A stretch of DNA of 64,000 nt from Acidovorax sp. T1 (lineage in GTDB: Bacteria > Pseudomonadota > Gammaproteobacteria > Burkholderiales > Burkholderiaceae_C), in assembly GCF_002176815.1 (NCBI RefSeq), contig NZ_CP021648.1:434001-498000 (forward strand), read 5' to 3'. The position numbers and the translations under genes were made by a program. This document shows, piece by piece, positions 13,673 through 33,597 of the stretch. Each line of letters starts with the position of its first letter. Positions within the stretch are counted from its first letter, which is position 1. The notes under the pieces are model-generated. The model was given only the letters and a program-made list of their open reading frames with translations, searched no databases and was not told where the DNA came from.

Positions 13673-13749
<77 letters not shown>

Positions 13750-13768
13750 AAAAAGCGGTTAACGCTGC

Positions 13769-13803
13769 AACAAAGCCCACTTTAAAGTGGGCTTTGTTGT
13801 TTG
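13769..13803 (+). terminator. Perfect-palindrome terminator behind tRNA-fMet
   Basis: AACAAAGCCCACTTT (13769-13783) is followed directly by its exact reverse complement (13784-13798), then GTTTGT. The stem ends in AAAGCC/GGCTTT, so it provides A and T runs on both strands and could stop transcription in either direction. It closes the ribosomal block. Confidence 0.8.
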
Positions 13804-14040: not shown

Positions 14041-14841
14041 ATGGCTGGCGCAGTGACAAGTTTCCATGGAATGTATCTGCACCACCGATTTAATAGCTCT
14101 AGTCTTCTTATCCTCCTGCAGCAATGGACGGCCGTGGAACCAGAGGGCGTGCCGCGGCAGGACACGGCGCAAGCGCTGAGCCAGTGGTTGCGTGCCGTGG
14201 ATGCAATCCAACTTAGCAGGGCACTGCACGCCATTGGGTCGATGCCGTCCGTGGCGGAGCGGTCGGGGCCAGCCGTGGATATGTGCAGGTTGAACGCTGC
14301 TTTTCATACCGCAAAAGCCGATGTCATGGGGCTTATTCAGATCAATATCGCTCCAGCGACGGCAATGCGTGGGCGGGCACAGCACGCGCTCGCCGATGAC
14401 TCGTATTCGCAGGAGCCAGAAGATTTCGCTGCTTACATACAGCGCTATCTTGGCCTACAAAAGCAGATGGACGTAAAGCTTGCCGCCTTGCGTGCGCAGA
14501 TGCGGCAGTGGCTGTCTCGAAGTACGCCGGCCCTGCGACAACTGGCAGCCCTGGACGGTGTGATGGAGCAGATGCTGGGTACGAGAGAGCAACGGCTTTG
14601 GGCCTTGCTACCGGGTTATTTGGAGCGACGCCTGGCGCACCGGCTCCAGCAGCACCAGCAGGCGCTGCAGACCAGTGGCCAGGACGATGCACCACAACGC
14701 TGGCGCCAGCCCGGTGGCTTGCTGTGGACCTTCGAGCAGGATTTACAGGCGTTACTGCTCGCAGAGATGCAGGTCCGCCTTCAGCCGATCGTGGGGCTGC
14801 TGGAAGCGGCACACAACGAGACAACAGGACAACAGGAATGA
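14041..14841 (+). CDS. DUF3348 family protein, first gene of a stator-like operon
   Basis: The 266-residue soluble protein resembles the DUF3348 family, which has no known function. It is mainly helical, rich in Gln, Leu and Arg, and has no signal peptide or membrane segment. FNSSSLLILLQQW near residue 17 matches the family start; an ATG at 14071 is an alternative start. Its stop overlaps the next start by 4 bases (ATGA), so translation is probably coupled. It probably acts with the three following genes. The call rests on resemblance and context. Confidence 0.65.
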   Translation: MAGAVTSFHGMYLHHRFNSSSLLILLQQWTAVEPEGVPRQDTAQALSQWLRAVDAIQLSRALHAIGSMPSVAERSGPAVDMCRLNAAFHTAKADVMGLIQINIAPATAMRGRAQHALADDSYSQEPEDFAAYIQRYLGLQKQMDVKLAALRAQMRQWLSRSTPALRQLAALDGVMEQMLGTREQRLWALLPGYLERRLAHRLQQHQQALQTSGQDDAPQRWRQPGGLLWTFEQDLQALLLAEMQVRLQPIVGLLEAAHNETTGQQE

Positions 14842-17261
14842 ACAAGAGTGTGATGGCCGCCATCTTCGCCGTGGGCCTTGCGGTCGTGGGCTGGGTGGGC
14901 TGGGGTTTTGTGGGATCGAGTCCGCTGGCGCTGGCAATGACAGCTGTCATTGGTGGGGTCTACGTGCTGGGCGCCTATGAGCAGATGCAGTTTCGGGCGG
15001 CCACGGTGTCCCTGGCCACCGCGCTTGGGGGCTGTTCCGCAGAGCCACTGATGGATCTGGGCGGGTGGCTGGGCCGCCTCGCCCCTTCACTGCGCAACCC
15101 TGTGCGCCAGCGCATCGAGGGCGAACGGGTGGCCTTGCCCGGCGCTGCGCTCACGCCCTACCTGGTGGGGCTGTTGGTCATGCTGGGCATGCTGGGGACC
15201 TTTCTGGGCATGGTCGTTACCTTCAATGGCGTCGTGTTTGCGCTGGAGGCCTCGTCCAACTTGGAGTCGATCCGTTCGGCGCTGGCGGCGCCCATCAAGG
15301 GCCTTGGCCTGTCATTTGGAACCTCGGTCGCCGGGGTAGCCGCGTCGGCCATGCTGGGTCTTCTGTCTGCCATGAGCCGCCGGGAGCGGCTGGAGACGGT
15401 GCGCCAGCTTGATGCGCACATACCCACGTTGTTCCGTCCGTTCTCTTCGGCCCATCGGCGCGAGGAAATGCTCCAGGCCCTGCAAACACAGGCCCAGGCA
15501 CTGCCGCTGATCGCCGAGCGCCTTCAGGGCCTGATGGAGGGTCTGGAGCGCCGCAACGGTCAGTTGGGCGAGCAGCTGCTGACACAGCAGCAGGGGTTTC
15601 ATCGTGAAGCTGCAGCGGCCTACACCCAACTTGCCAGCACGGTGGGGGCATCCTTGCAGGAGAGCCTGGGCGCCAGCGCCTGCCAGGTGGGAGAGGCGAT
15701 TCGCCCCGTGGTCGAGCAGGCAATGGCCACGCTGGCCAACGAGGCCCAGCGCTCGCATGAGCGACTGCGCGAAACCACCGATGCACAGCTGCAGGCGCTC
15801 TCGGCTCAATGGGAGGGAACGGCCCGTCAGGTGTCTGACACATGGACTTCGGCACTGCACAGGCACACCCAGACACAAGGTAGCCTGGTGGCACAGCTCG
15901 ATGGTGCTCTGCAGTCGGTCACACAAGCATTTGACCTGCGTTCTAGCGTATTAGTGGACTCGCTGCAGGCGTCAACTGCGCAAGCGCACGCAGCCCAGGC
16001 AGTTGCCGATCAGCAGCGCCTGGAACGCTGGAATCGCTCCATGGAAGGCATGGCCAGCACACTCGGCGGCGAGTGGCAACGCACAGGCGCGCAGATGCTG
16101 GAACAGCAGCAGCGTGTCGGCAAGGCCCTGGAAGGTGCGGTTCAGCAGCTCGACCGCAGCCTGCAGATGGCCGCGCAGGCGTTTGACCAGCGCTCCGACA
16201 GTTTGCTGACAACGCTGCAGGACACCGTGGCGCAATCGCACACCGCCCAAACTGCGGCCGACCAACAGCGCCAGGATGGCTGGAGCCGCTCCATGGAGGC
16301 CATGGCCAGAACGCTCAGCGCCGAATGGCAGCGCGTGGGTGTACAGACAGTGGCGCAGCAGCAGGGCGTATGCCAAGCACTGGAGGCAACCGCCACGCAA
16401 ATCACCGAACGCATGACCGAGCAGGTGGCTCGCACACTGGGCGGTGCTGCCAGGTTGCTGGACCAGTCAGACGCGCTGCTGCGCACCCGCATGGAGGCTG
16501 AGGCCCAGTGGGTGCAGGCCCAAGGCCAGCGCATGCACGAACTGACCGGTGTGTGGCGCACCGAGCTGGTTGCCCTGCGTGATGCCGAGGCCCAGCGCGG
16601 TCAGGCTGCCGTGGAGCGGCTCGATACGCTGCAGGCTGCCGTGGCGCAGCACCTGGCTACCCTGGGATCAGCCCTGGAGGCCCCGCTCACGCGCTTGCTG
16701 CAGACCGCTTCGAACGTACCCCAGGCGGCAGCCGAGGTCATCACACAGCTGCGCCAGGAAATGACGCGCCTGAGCGAGCGCGACAATGTAGCCTTGGCAG
16801 AACGCACGGCCATGCTGGAGCAGCTGAGCACGCTGCTGCAGTCGGTGAACGAAGTGGCCATGCAGCAGCGCGCAGCGATCGATGCCCTGGTGGGCTCGGC
16901 TACCCAGGTGCTGGAGCAGGCAGGCCAGCAGTTTGCTCAGTCGATCAGCACGCAGGCCCGCAAGGTGGACGAAGTGGCCGCGCATGTGGCTGCCAGCGCA
17001 GTGGAACTGGCCAGCCTGGGTGAATCCTTCAGCCACGGTGCGGGCCTGTTCAGCGCCAGCAACGAGAAACTCATGGAAAGCCTGCAGGGCATCGAAGGCG
17101 CGATCAGCCAGTCGATGAGCCGAAGTGACGAGCAACTGGCCTACTACGTGGCCCAGGCCCGCGAGGTGATCGACCTGAGCATCAGCGCGCAGCAGGGCAT
17201 CGTGGAAGACTTGCGCCGGCTGCACGGCAAGGCGTCCTCGGCACAAGGGGTGGCTGCGTGA
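14838..17261 (+). CDS. DUF802 membrane protein with MotA/ExbB/ZorA-like channel and long coiled-coil tail
   Basis: The 807-residue protein has two N-terminal helices (about residues 5-25 and 32-50). A second pair (about 112-135 and 155-180) carries LGMLGTFLGMV and GLGLSFGTSVAGVAASAML. These match the core of MotA, TolQ, ExbB and ZorA proton-channel subunits. The remaining 600 or so residues are Gln/Ala-rich helix with heptad character and no membrane segment, as in the cytoplasmic tail of ZorA. Residues 354-437 and 438-521 are a tandem repeat; DUF802 is described in Pfam as occurring in repeats. The next gene encodes the matching MotB-like subunit. Function is inferred as an ion-driven envelope motor. 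Confidence 0.7.
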   Translation: MNKSVMAAIFAVGLAVVGWVGWGFVGSSPLALAMTAVIGGVYVLGAYEQMQFRAATVSLATALGGCSAEPLMDLGGWLGRLAPSLRNPVRQRIEGERVALPGAALTPYLVGLLVMLGMLGTFLGMVVTFNGVVFALEASSNLESIRSALAAPIKGLGLSFGTSVAGVAASAMLGLLSAMSRRERLETVRQLDAHIPTLFRPFSSAHRREEMLQALQTQAQALPLIAERLQGLMEGLERRNGQLGEQLLTQQQGFHREAAAAYTQLASTVGASLQESLGASACQVGEAIRPVVEQAMATLANEAQRSHERLRETTDAQLQALSAQWEGTARQVSDTWTSALHRHTQTQGSLVAQLDGALQSVTQAFDLRSSVLVDSLQASTAQAHAAQAVADQQRLERWNRSMEGMASTLGGEWQRTGAQMLEQQQRVGKALEGAVQQLDRSLQMAAQAFDQRSDSLLTTLQDTVAQSHTAQTAADQQRQDGWSRSMEAMARTLSAEWQRVGVQTVAQQQGVCQALEATATQITERMTEQVARTLGGAARLLDQSDALLRTRMEAEAQWVQAQGQRMHELTGVWRTELVALRDAEAQRGQAAVERLDTLQAAVAQHLATLGSALEAPLTRLLQTASNVPQAAAEVITQLRQEMTRLSERDNVALAERTAMLEQLSTLLQSVNEVAMQQRAAIDALVGSATQVLEQAGQQFAQSISTQARKVDEVAAHVAASAVELASLGESFSHGAGLFSASNEKLMESLQGIEGAISQSMSRSDEQLAYYVAQAREVIDLSISAQQGIVEDLRRLHGKASSAQGVAA
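15897..16400 (+). repeat. Tandem 84-residue repeat inside the DUF802 protein
   Basis: Unit 1 (15897-16148) and unit 2 (16149-16400) each encode 84 residues with no gap. Both begin LDxxLQ, continue AFDxRSxxL, and share ADQQR, W(N/S)RSME, TL(G/S)xEWQR and QQ.V.(K/Q)ALE at the same offsets. The periodicity suits an extended coiled coil whose length changes by whole units. Confidence 0.85.
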
Positions 17262-17917
17262 TGGGCGTTGACGACACCCTGGACGATGCCACCGAACAGA
17301 CGGCCCCCGTGTGGGCTGTTTTCGGCGACCTTATGGCGGGTCTGCTGGGCGCGTTTGTACTGATCCTGGTGGGCGTGCTTGTGGTGCAGATCGACCTGGT
17401 GGCCAGCCTCAAGCAGGAGGTGGAAAAGCGCCAGATGGAAGAGCAGCGCCGCATGGCGCTGGAGAAGGCGCTGGCCATTCCACTGGCCAGCGGCCGGGTC
17501 ACCGTGCACAACGGCCGTATAGGCATCAGCGGCAGCGTGCTTTTTGCCGCAGGCTCCGACGAGCTGCGCTCCGAAGGCCGCCAGCTCCTCAAGAGCCTGG
17601 TGCAGCCCCTGCAGGTCTACCTGCGCGAGCGCGACGAGATGCTCATGGTGAGCGGCTTCACCGACAACACCACGCTGCTGCAAGGGCCTCAGCAGCGCTT
17701 TGCCGACAACATGGAGCTGTCGGCCCAGCGGGCCCTCACCGTGGCTCGGGCCCTGATTGACGAAGGCATGCCCTCGTCGCAGGTGTTTGCCGCAGCCTTT
17801 GGTGCCGAACAACCCGTGGCCGACAACGCCGATGAAAAGGGGCGCGCGCAAAACCGCCGTGTGGAGATGGCCCCGGTGCCCAAGGCTCCCAATGCCAAGC
17901 CCGCCCGCAATGAGTGA
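17261..17917 (+). CDS. MotB/OmpA-family peptidoglycan-binding protein, partner of the DUF802 protein
   Basis: The 218-residue protein has one membrane helix near the N-terminus (VFGDLMAGLLGAFVLILVGV). An aspartate (D23) sits at the helix entry, where MotB and ZorB carry their proton-binding residue. The C-terminal OmpA-like domain has LFAAGSDELRSEGRQLL, NMELSAQRALTVARAL and QNRRVEM, the motifs that bind diaminopimelate in peptidoglycan. The ATG overlaps the previous stop (TGATG); a GTG at 17258 is an alternative start. It fits the anchored subunit of a 5:2-type stator. Confidence 0.75.
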   Translation: MGVDDTLDDATEQTAPVWAVFGDLMAGLLGAFVLILVGVLVVQIDLVASLKQEVEKRQMEEQRRMALEKALAIPLASGRVTVHNGRIGISGSVLFAAGSDELRSEGRQLLKSLVQPLQVYLRERDEMLMVSGFTDNTTLLQGPQQRFADNMELSAQRALTVARALIDEGMPSSQVFAAAFGAEQPVADNADEKGRAQNRRVEMAPVPKAPNAKPARNE

Positions 17918-18515
17918 GCCGAGCGAACCCACGTTGGGGTCCTTGCGGGCCGACGGCGCCGACCGCCACGACCCGGCGCGCTTTCACTTTCTGGAGGTGC
18001 TGGCACGGCGCCTGCCAGGCCAGCCTGTGGCCGTGCGGCAGGTACTGGAGGGGCGGCTGCATGCCGCTGTAGCGGACTATGCCGAGCGAGCCCGGTCGAG
18101 TCCGGATGCGGCCCAGCAGGTGGGTCGGCCTGCAATACCTGCAGCGATCTCCCCCTTGGTGCAACTGAACCGTGACCTGAGCGCCCGCGCACAGGCCGAT
18201 GCAGATGTCGTTCGTGCGGGCGATGGCGGCAGCCTGTCAGACATGAAGAGCGTGCGCCAGTTCAGCGAAGTCTGGTCCAAGATTTCTGCACAACGGCAGG
18301 TGGCGCAGGCGCTGGATCGTGGGCCCGAAAATGCCGGGCCGCTCAACTCGCACAGGCTCATGTTGCGATCACTCAGCTTGATGCAGTCACTGTCGCCTGA
18401 CTACCTGCGGCGCTTTTTGTCGCAGGTGGATTCGCTGCTGTGGCTGGAGCAGGCGAGCGCGAAGCCCCTGCGCTCTACGGCCAAACCGGGGCGCAAGAGT
18501 CGGCCCAGGCCCTGA
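17910..18515 (+). CDS. DUF2894 family protein, last gene of the stator-like operon
   Basis: The 201-residue soluble protein resembles the DUF2894 family, of unknown function. A helical N-terminal part (RFHFLEVLARRLPGQPVAV) is followed by a variable linker and a C-terminal block with SVRQFSEVWSKISAQRQVAQ, AGPLNSHRLMLRSL and LSPDYLRRFLSQVDSL. The tail is basic. It starts 8 bases inside the preceding gene. It has no membrane segment, so it is probably a cytoplasmic partner of the motor. Confidence 0.65.
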   Translation: MSEPSEPTLGSLRADGADRHDPARFHFLEVLARRLPGQPVAVRQVLEGRLHAAVADYAERARSSPDAAQQVGRPAIPAAISPLVQLNRDLSARAQADADVVRAGDGGSLSDMKSVRQFSEVWSKISAQRQVAQALDRGPENAGPLNSHRLMLRSLSLMQSLSPDYLRRFLSQVDSLLWLEQASAKPLRSTAKPGRKSRPRP

Positions 18516-31584: not shown

Positions 31585-33597
31585 GTGGCTGCATCCTCTA
31601 CTACCTCCTTGGCCGGTCCCGGCGCTGTATCGCCAACGTCCCACGGCACCAAGGTGCTGCGGCTGGTCTTGTCCGTTTTGGCTTTCGCCGCGCTGCTGGC
31701 GTTTCCCACGGTGGTCGGCAATCCCTATTACATCCACTTGCTGGAGACCATCATGATCTACGCGATCGTGCTCTTTGGTCTCGACATCGTGGTGGGCTAC
31801 ACCGGGCAGGTGTCCCTGGGCCATGCGGGTCTGTTTGGCCTGGGGTCCTACACGGCGGGTGTGCTGGTGTTCAAGCTGGCCGCGCCCATCTGGGTCACCA
31901 TTCCGGCCGCCATTGTGCTGACCGCGGGCTTTGGTGCACTGCTGGCGCTGCCCGCCCTGCGCGTCTCCGGCCCTTATCTGGCCATGGTGACGCTGGCGTT
32001 CGGCACCATCATCCAGATTCTCATCAACGAGATGAGTTTTTTGACCGAAGGCCCCATGGGCATCAAGCTGGACAAGCCCGAGATCGGCGGTTTTCAGCTG
32101 GCCAAGCGCGAGTATTTCTGGCTGGTGGCCACCATGATGGTGCTGTCGCTCATCGTGTCGCACCGCATTTTGCGCTCCCACCTGGGCCGGGCCTTCGAGG
32201 CGCTGCGCGGCAGCCCCGTGGCGTCCGATTGCATGGGCGTATCGGTTTACCGCTACAAGGTCTACGCTTTTGTGATCAGCGCCGGTTTTGCCGGGTTGGC
32301 TGGTTGTCTGTACGCGTATTCCGAGCAGTACATCTCCCCCAACTCGTACAACTTTGAACTCACGGTGCTGTTCCTGCTGGCGGTGATCATGGGGGGGCGC
32401 AAGAGCCGCATTGGTTCGCTGGTGGGCGCTGCCATCATCGTGCTGCTGCCCAAGCTGCTCGATGATGTGGAACTGTTCCGCTACGTGTCGGTGGGCCTGG
32501 CGGTGTTGGTGGCTATTACCGCCGTGGTTGCCATCCGAAGCGGGCGCTCCACCGTATCCCAGATGGTGATTCCGGTGGTGGGCAGTATTGCGCTGGCAGC
32601 GCTGTCTTTCTGGTTGCAGACCATGACCGACTGGCGTTTGTCGATCTTCGGCGTGATCATGCTGTTTGTTGTGTACTACCTGCAGGATGGCATTGTTGGT
32701 TTTGTCCGCAACGCGCTCAACCTGCGCACGGCACCTCCCGAGTTGCCCGTGCAACCCGCCGGTGCATCGCAGGCGGATGCGGTGTCCACAGCCGCCAAGG
32801 CGGGTAGATCGACCGAACTGTTGCAAGCCAGCGGCGTGCTCATGCAGTTTGGCGGTCTCAAGGCCCTGAACAATGTGGACCTGAGCATCCAGCGGGGCAC
32901 CATCCACGGCCTCATCGGCCCTAACGGCTCGGGCAAGAGCACCATGATGAACGTGCTCACCGGCATTTACGTGCCGACCGCTGGCTCGATCAACTTTGAT
33001 GGCCGCTCTGTGGTGGGGCGCACCTCGTCGGACATTGCGCTGTCGGGTATTGCACGAACCTTTCAGAACGTGCAGCTGTTTGGTGAGATGACCGCACTGC
33101 AAAACGTGCAGGTGGGCCTGCACCACAGCTTTGCGAGCAACCTGTTTGATGTGGCCGTGCACACGGGGCGCTATCGCCGTGAAAGCGATGCCTCCATTGC
33201 CCGGGGGATGGGCTTGTTGCGTCTGGTCGGCCTGGAAGACCTGGCTGCGGAACAGGCGCGCAACCTGCCTTATGGCAAACAGCGCTTGCTGGAGATTGCC
33301 CGCGCCCTGGCGCTGGATCCCCAGTTGCTGCTGCTCGATGAGCCCGCCGCCGGTCTCACCGCCCCGGACATCGTCGAGTTGATCGCCATCATCAAGAAGA
33401 TTCGCGACCACGGCGTGACGGTGATCCTGATCGAGCACCACATGGATGTGGTGATGAGCATCTGCGACACGGTCTCGGTTCTGGACTTTGGCCAGAAGAT
33501 TGCCGAGGGCATGCCCGCTGCGGTCCAGGCCGATGCCAAGGTGATTGAGGCTTACCTGGGCGGTGGTGCCGAGACTATCGTGGCCCAGCCCGCCTGA
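31585..33597 (+). CDS. Fused LivM permease and LivG ATPase of the branched-chain amino-acid transporter
   Basis: The 670-residue protein joins two subunits that are usually separate. Residues about 25-385 are the LivM permease (GYTGQVSLGHAGLFGLGSYT, RAFEALRGSPVASDCMGVSV). Residues about 410-650 are the LivG ATPase with Walker A GPNGSGKST, signature LPYGKQRLLEIARALAL and Walker B LLLLDEPAAGL. A short linker (APPELPVQPAGASQAD) joins them. It starts with GTG at 31585. Fusion fixes one ATPase per permease. Confidence 0.92.
   Translation: MAASSTTSLAGPGAVSPTSHGTKVLRLVLSVLAFAALLAFPTVVGNPYYIHLLETIMIYAIVLFGLDIVVGYTGQVSLGHAGLFGLGSYTAGVLVFKLAAPIWVTIPAAIVLTAGFGALLALPALRVSGPYLAMVTLAFGTIIQILINEMSFLTEGPMGIKLDKPEIGGFQLAKREYFWLVATMMVLSLIVSHRILRSHLGRAFEALRGSPVASDCMGVSVYRYKVYAFVISAGFAGLAGCLYAYSEQYISPNSYNFELTVLFLLAVIMGGRKSRIGSLVGAAIIVLLPKLLDDVELFRYVSVGLAVLVAITAVVAIRSGRSTVSQMVIPVVGSIALAALSFWLQTMTDWRLSIFGVIMLFVVYYLQDGIVGFVRNALNLRTAPPELPVQPAGASQADAVSTAAKAGRSTELLQASGVLMQFGGLKALNNVDLSIQRGTIHGLIGPNGSGKSTMMNVLTGIYVPTAGSINFDGRSVVGRTSSDIALSGIARTFQNVQLFGEMTALQNVQVGLHHSFASNLFDVAVHTGRYRRESDASIARGMGLLRLVGLEDLAAEQARNLPYGKQRLLEIARALALDPQLLLLDEPAAGLTAPDIVELIAIIKKIRDHGVTVILIEHHMDVVMSICDTVSVLDFGQKIAEGMPAAVQADAKVIEAYLGGGAETIVAQPA

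Follow-up and report, generated by a model that had tools for sequence, protein, structure and literature searches.

The stretch of DNA analysed here, referred to below as the window, comprises 64,000 nucleotides of Acidovorax sp. T1 (contig NZ_CP021648.1, positions 434,001 to 498,000, in a genome of 4.4 Mb), and the system in question is a group of four genes at 14041-18515 which, judging from the sequence, is a complete type III Zorya operon. The four open reading frames (ORFs) are on the same strand (+) and overlap by 4, 1 and 8 bases. The first, at 14041-14841, encodes a DUF3348 protein of 266 residues (PDLC00658, 1.5e-60; PF11828, 4e-49), and the second, at 14838-17261, a type III ZorA of 807 residues with a MotA-like motor domain and a tail of about 600 residues (PDLC00648, 7e-261; ZorA of 8VVN, 3e-5). 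The third, at 17261-17917 and read from the ATG at 17261, encodes a type III ZorB of 218 residues with one transmembrane helix and a periplasmic OmpA/MotB domain (PDLC00651, 3.7e-106; PF00691, 2e-18), and the fourth, at 17910-18515, a DUF2894 protein of 201 residues (PDLC00652, 1.4e-62; PF11445, 1e-51). A preliminary description of this DNA had given the four genes as DUF3348, DUF802, OmpA-type and DUF2894 with overlaps of 1 to 8 bases, with which both the ORFs and Pfam agree, the DUF802 match of ZorA (4e-10) being restricted to residues 321-373; its label "uncharacterised" was wrong, since type III Zorya was published in 2021 (PMC8565338).

All four proteins match the PADLOC models of type III Zorya, with best E-values from 1e-60 to 1e-261. 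ZorA matches the type III model at 7e-261, as against 3e-13 for type I and 4e-8 for type II, and the type I and II models of ZorB also match the window protein, more weakly than type III. In the passages that define the type, Payne et al. 2021 (PMC8565338) describe it by the genes for ZorA, ZorB, DUF3348 and DUF2894 and count 6,401 of them; the window contains the same four contiguous genes, and no difference in gene content was seen. The complete set is also present in 73 of 80 related loci (the best 80 of 550 relatives), the other seven being broken by a contig end. The listing of homologous proteins covered 120 of 7715 matches, and among the ZorA matches listed the nearest named relatives belong to Acidovorax.

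The naming of these proteins is not uniform. The DUF3348 protein is ZorF and the DUF2894 protein ZorG in the defining paper, whereas PADLOC-DB 2.0 (PDLC00652-00658) has the two names swapped, as ZorG3 and ZorF3, respectively. The only NCBIfam label obtained for the window ZorB is PRK09040, "hypothetical protein", and the window ZorA scores below the cut-offs of those NCBIfam ZorA models that it matches.

Motor subunits and the ion pathway

A profile of ZorA residues 1-240, built from 28 of the 59 available sequences with the window included, retrieved a single PDB chain at E<=0.01, the ZorA of the type I complex 8VVN (3.3e-5), and the ZorB profile matched chain B of the same complex (1e-6, residues 10-165). 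Thr121 and Ser163 of ZorA are invariant in all 28 rows and Thr162 is present in at least 90% of them; in the profile alignment with 8VVN, Thr121 is aligned with the Thr of GTF and Thr162-Ser163 with the Thr-Ser of type I ZorA. Both motifs singled out in the preliminary description were located in the second protein, LGMLGTFLGMV at residues 116-126 and GLGLSFGTSVAGVAAS at residues 155-170. The part of Mariano et al. 2025 that deals with the ion site (PMC11890865) places the Na+ of type I Zorya at conserved Ser/Thr residues, which it does not name, and describes the type II site as proton-like. Na+ may likewise be the coupling ion of the window motor, and the earlier term "proton-driven" is unsupported, as Thr121 and Thr162-Ser163 align with the ZorA of the type reported there to bind Na+.

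In the alignment of ZorB (59 of 74 available relatives plus the window), Asp23, at the entry of the single helix, is invariant in all 60 rows, as are Thr134-Asp135 and several Arg residues. The remaining structural claims of the preliminary description stand: a second protein with a tail of about 600 residues, and a third with a single helix, Asp23 at its entry and an OmpA domain. Two of the findings that it had named as refuting it, lack of a profile match and lack of conservation of D23, did not arise. That the motor is of the MotA/ExbB class, with a tail like that of ZorA, is likewise borne out by the matches to type III ZorA (7e-261), type III ZorB (4e-106) and the ZorA of 8VVN (3e-5), the profile matches being to Zorya ZorA models and to 8VVN and not to the Pfam MotA/ExbB models.

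The window operon has in common with types I and II the ZorA motor segment, the ZorB helix with its Asp, the OmpA domain and the long cytoplasmic rod. It differs from them in carrying two helical partners in place of any ZorC/ZorD or ZorE gene found: PADLOC models of ZorC, ZorD and ZorE gave no match in the four operon proteins, nor in a scan of 10 proteins encoded downstream. Mariano et al. 2025 solved the type I and II complexes, which have 5:2 stoichiometry (8VVN, 8VVI), and, as far as the sections on function go, report that both types need the ZorB Asp, the peptidoglycan-binding residues and the ZorA rod; type III figures there through its gene list and genera, with the suggestion of a mechanism common to all subtypes (PMC11890865).

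By profile, ZorB also has the periplasmic domain of the flagellar MotB/PomB type, the motor class being given by ZorA; unlike MotA/MotB and PomA/PomB, the system has a long shaft and DUF3348/DUF2894 partners, and its neighbours are ribosomal genes, rpoA and a LysR gene. The channel subunit of TolQ/TolR and ExbB/ExbD belongs to the same superfamily, and here it is the OmpA-type periplasmic domain of ZorB that sets the window system apart.

Length, phase and tip of the ZorA shaft

The cytoplasmic tail of ZorA, about 600 residues long with a hydrophobic period of about 3.63 and a putative rod shape, contains two tandem 84-residue units (residues 351-434 and 435-518; 15888-16391, + strand), in which 48 of 88 residues from 351-438 are identical at an offset of 84 and the DNA identity is 67% over 252 bp. 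Close relatives differ in the length of the ZorA tail through tandem duplication, in Acidovorax in steps of 84 residues. A full ZorA was available from all but 3 of the 39 positive same-genus loci, which are cut by contig ends, and 35 of these 36 proteins deviate by no more than 9 residues from 724+84k, with 3 at 724-730, 13 at 803-813, 16 at 889-901, 2 at 978-979 and 1 at 1057. One of the loci (L069) has self-matches at offsets up to 336, corresponding to five copies of the unit. The 36th protein, of 925 residues (L066, genome G021), has the conserved tip in another frame, which may be an assembly error or a real break; L121, a contig as long as L066, has a ZorA of this length too.

Sister genomes differ in copy number (807 residues in G000 and 725 in G032; 807 in G003 and 730 in G004), and because the operons of both pairs are at one common site, that of the window (in G032 by the downstream flank only), the number of units changes in place. 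Altogether, 173 ZorA proteins were collected (158 distinct, 530-1193 residues), a range that contrasts with types I and II, the size of whose components is called well conserved per family in the relevant passage of PMC11890865; a length control with type I ZorA, found in only 5 of 274 genomes, is too small for comparison with type III. The base form of 719-728 residues accounts for 24 of the 122 distinct proteins outside the same-genus set. Under a strict filter, 61 of the 158 distinct proteins contain a repeat unit, which in 28 of them has 84 residues, and 19 distinct unit lengths are represented (124 and 146 being doubles of others). Units seen at other positions in the tail have, for example, 87 residues in Variovorax records and 69, 80, 91, 94, 131 and 135 elsewhere. 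The text of Payne et al. devoted to type III makes no mention of variable tail length (PMC8565338).

The 19 unit lengths lie preferentially near integer multiples of 3.645 residues (R 0.889), a value reached by none of 3000 random sets (mean 0.365), while clustering at 3.5 residues is weak (R 0.32). Eighteen of them are at most 0.15 turn off phase and the worst, 94, is off by 0.21. The result is similar when the doubles 124 and 146 are left out (R 0.891 at 3.64) and for the 12 units with at least 55% identity (R 0.906; 0 of 5000 random sets as high). A separate measurement on 70 tails without repeats gave a hydrophobic period of 3.625 (interquartile range 3.615-3.63), and with the period fixed at this value the unit lengths give a mean cosine of 0.63, which none of 20000 random sets attains. 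Detection itself carries no phase preference: when duplications of random length were planted in repeat-free tails, 337 of 400 were recovered, with R 0.07. These data suggest that the length of the tail is free and its helical phase selected, as would be the case for a continuous helix-bundle rod.

These length changes might alternatively reflect neutral drift, through replication slippage in a spacer under low constraint, and would then be uninformative as to mechanism. Drift is consistent with the middle of the tail being the least conserved stretch of ZorA (columns 301-475, 0.36-0.47 per 25 columns in 31 base-length ZorA) and with the many units at many positions; nevertheless, the unit lengths are not random and were detected without phase bias, so that length may well drift but phase appears to be selected, and we regard pure drift as rather improbable. 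Natural length variants that keep phase constitute a ready test set, and they suggest that selection holds phase (rigidity or torque) and not reach.

In contrast to the middle of the tail, its tip is conserved. In the same 31 base-length proteins the tip block (columns 676-700, window residues ~764-795; 17127-17222, + strand) is the best-conserved block of the tail, with a value of 0.88, compared with 0.96 and 0.88 for the two pore blocks. A 15-residue tip motif with at most 5 substitutions is found in 154 of the 158 distinct ZorA, and an exact 14-residue core in 104 of the 173, starting 35-69 residues (median 41) from the C-terminus. This conservation makes the tip a likely docking site.

Candidates for docking are the two partner proteins. 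The DUF3348 protein is predicted to be all-helical (predicted local distance difference test, pLDDT, 84.7; predicted template modelling score, pTM, 0.80) and is the fastest-evolving subunit, the ratio of non-synonymous to synonymous substitution rates (dN/dS) being 0.30-0.37 in four comparisons; its alignment comprises 72 of 79 relatives and the window. The DUF2894 protein is predicted to be helical with a basic C-terminal tail (pLDDT 79, pTM 0.40), and in an alignment of 68 of 74 relatives and the window its median net charge is +8, with +5 in the last 25 residues (69 rows).

Insertion site and genomic context

The window operon is flanked by the rplQ-tRNA-Met pair on one side and a LysR-type gene on the other; Pfam identifies rpsD, rpoA and rplQ upstream and the LysR-type gene downstream. 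Homology to operon-less sites breaks off at about 13805 and begins again at about 18639, where the LysR gene lies, and the tRNA-Met and a terminator-like hairpin (13673-13800, + strand) form the upstream boundary of the insertion site. Each of the 46 same-genus stretches that contain rplQ has the tRNA-Met. In 24 of these 46 genomes LysR comes directly after rplQ, with no operon at that place (21 with Zorya elsewhere and 3 without any), and in 3 the operon lies between the two genes; the remaining 19 are arranged differently or have a contig that is too short. Same-genus loci fall into upstream flank groups of 16, 11, 4 and 3 with 4 singles, and downstream groups of 13, 11, 5 and 4 with 2 singles. 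Their sites partly follow the tree, which comprises 44 of the 47 same-genus genomes and in which 9 of the 41 inner branches are open, with 10 changes of site state when uncertain sites and absence are counted as states of their own and unassigned sites are left out.

Defence families are scarce around type III loci. A scan of 111 flank proteins (of 235 candidates) from 21 of 43 loci, none of them in a record named Acidovorax, yielded five PADLOC families at E<=1e-20, each represented by a single protein. In a control with Shedu, 78 of 81 proteins from 15 of 19 places gave 121 PADLOC families (a redundant count), those shown, 25 in all, including IetA/IetS, LmuA/LmuB, methylases and a restriction enzyme; three proteins were dropped because they coincided in position with a further locus in their genome. 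Flank genes were called crudely, as the longest ORFs of 200 codons or more that do not overlap one another, and the type III and Shedu loci were sampled from different sets of genomes. The window's own genome has two Shedu-like (PF14082) places of equal score (L293 and L294, on contigs C1 and C2), with one-sided flank ORFs at the same relative coordinates, perhaps a duplicated segment.

The everyday role of the type III motor might also be the sensing of envelope or peptidoglycan stress, a chromosomal housekeeping function that blocks some phages when over-expressed. A DUF3348 match, one in each case, is found in 39 of 47 same-genus genomes (36 of the 42 good ones) at few recurring chromosomal sites; ZorA is present in 27 of 72,556 plasmid records, and among the 20 that were listed 17 measure at least 1.9 Mb; a scan of viral contigs with two short patterns gave 47 candidate stretches, none of which contains ZorA; the flanks are poor in defence families as described; and the dN/dS of ZorB is 0.03-0.11, all of which would suit such a role. 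Above the genus, however, the distribution is patchy: DUF3348 matches occur in 87 of 299 genomes of the family. For ZorA at E<1e-30, 23 of the 399 genomes examined from the order have a match, as do 10 of the 369 from the class (at E<=1e-3, 27 and 35, respectively); since scoring was limited to 7 candidates in each genome, the absences are soft. Even within the genus, 8 of the 47 genomes lack the match, including a supported clade of four (G045, G046, G025 and G029; L099-L102), in three of which LysR directly follows rplQ. The island control, moreover, is a single defence gene in another sample of genomes. Phage data also speak against housekeeping as the everyday role: in the experiments that Payne et al. 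describe for it, a relative from Stenotrophomonas nitritireducens protects E. coli, significantly cutting the plating of at least one phage (PMC8565338), and in Burkholderia cenocepacia under phage infection the expression results given for Zorya III show a change in only the first one or two genes (PMC12584637). On balance we consider stress sensing as the everyday role unlikely.

A proposed model of the type III motor

The membership of type III, the conserved pore residues, the operon itself, the phase-locking of the shaft and the conservation of its tip were all observed here by sequence comparison and computation, and in the light of them the operon is probably an ion-driven, wall-sensing motor with a phase-fixed shaft, the tip of which engages two helical partners. 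The 5:2 assembly, the binding of peptidoglycan and the need for ion flow and for the tail are carried over from the work on types I and II, by analogy with which five ZorA and two ZorB subunits would form the ion-driven motor in the inner membrane. ZorB would grip the peptidoglycan and Asp23 would carry the ion against a ring of ZorA Thr/Ser residues (Thr121, Thr162, Ser163). As trigger we infer a wall disturbed by phage entry or other damage, upon which ZorB would bind the wall and the pore would open, ZorA then turning or twisting its five-helix cytoplasmic shaft. Because helical phase is kept and length is free, the shaft could act as a rigid transmission rod; the literature consulted treats the passage of a signal from wall to effector via the Zorya rod as a hypothesis. 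The conserved tip would engage DUF2894 and DUF3348, of which the former might touch nucleic acid with its basic tail and the latter, evolving fast, might set specificity.

Several observations weigh against this model of a wall-sensing defence motor. ZorB has Phe133 in all 60 rows at the position where types I and II have the His (H186/H141) required for peptidoglycan binding, and because Phe replaces His, binding by the window ZorB may differ; the positions were matched by motif and through MotB-like alignments, not by direct alignment to type I or II ZorB, and a MotB-like protein in the PDB, 3khn, also has Phe there. No Pfam family of the MotA/ExbB type was found at E<=1 for the whole ZorA or at E<=10 for residues 1-240, in searches whose filters drop most weak matches, and the superfamily link of ZorA consequently rests on the Zorya profiles and 8VVN. 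Pfam and further searches revealed neither a nuclease family nor an unambiguous fold in DUF3348 or DUF2894, so that the effector step is missing from the model. As phase-locked repeats are to be expected of any coiled-coil rod, they support rigidity and are no proof of rotation. Finally, the context of type III in our sample is not that of a defence-island gene, yet its distribution is patchy above the genus.

A separate MotA/ExbB-type stator, as put forward in the preliminary description, that merely resembles Zorya would accord with the absence of a Zorya name above the NCBIfam cut-offs (PRK09040 for ZorB) and of Pfam MotA/ExbB matches, but is highly improbable given that type III profiles match all four proteins, that type I and II ZorA and ZorB profiles match as well and that the sole PDB chain retrieved with the ZorA profile at E<=0.01 is itself a ZorA.

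Going beyond the motor model, we tentatively put forward that type III is a settled chromosomal motor and not a module of defence islands, in which a rod of fixed phase and free length drives a nuclease-free helical pair at its tip. If this is true, the output of type III must differ from that of types I and II, and its target might for example be the nucleoid, the wall or an enzyme recruited from the host. A conserved tip together with two partners without a recognised nuclease would provide a concrete output model for type III, and the non-island context calls into question whether defence is its only job. The remark in the preliminary description that the operon need not be a defence system may thus be right, although a relative protects E. 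coli from phage. Relative to the literature available as open-licence full text in PubMed Central, the variation in tail length, the phase clustering, the tip conservation, the lack of a recognised nuclease in the two helical partners (unlike types I and II), the distribution within the genus and the non-island context are additions made here.

Elsewhere in the window, a 670-residue protein encoded at 31585-33597 on the + strand matches the PADLOC models mad3 (1e-23, with the best stretch at residues 558-636) and mad8 (8e-12).

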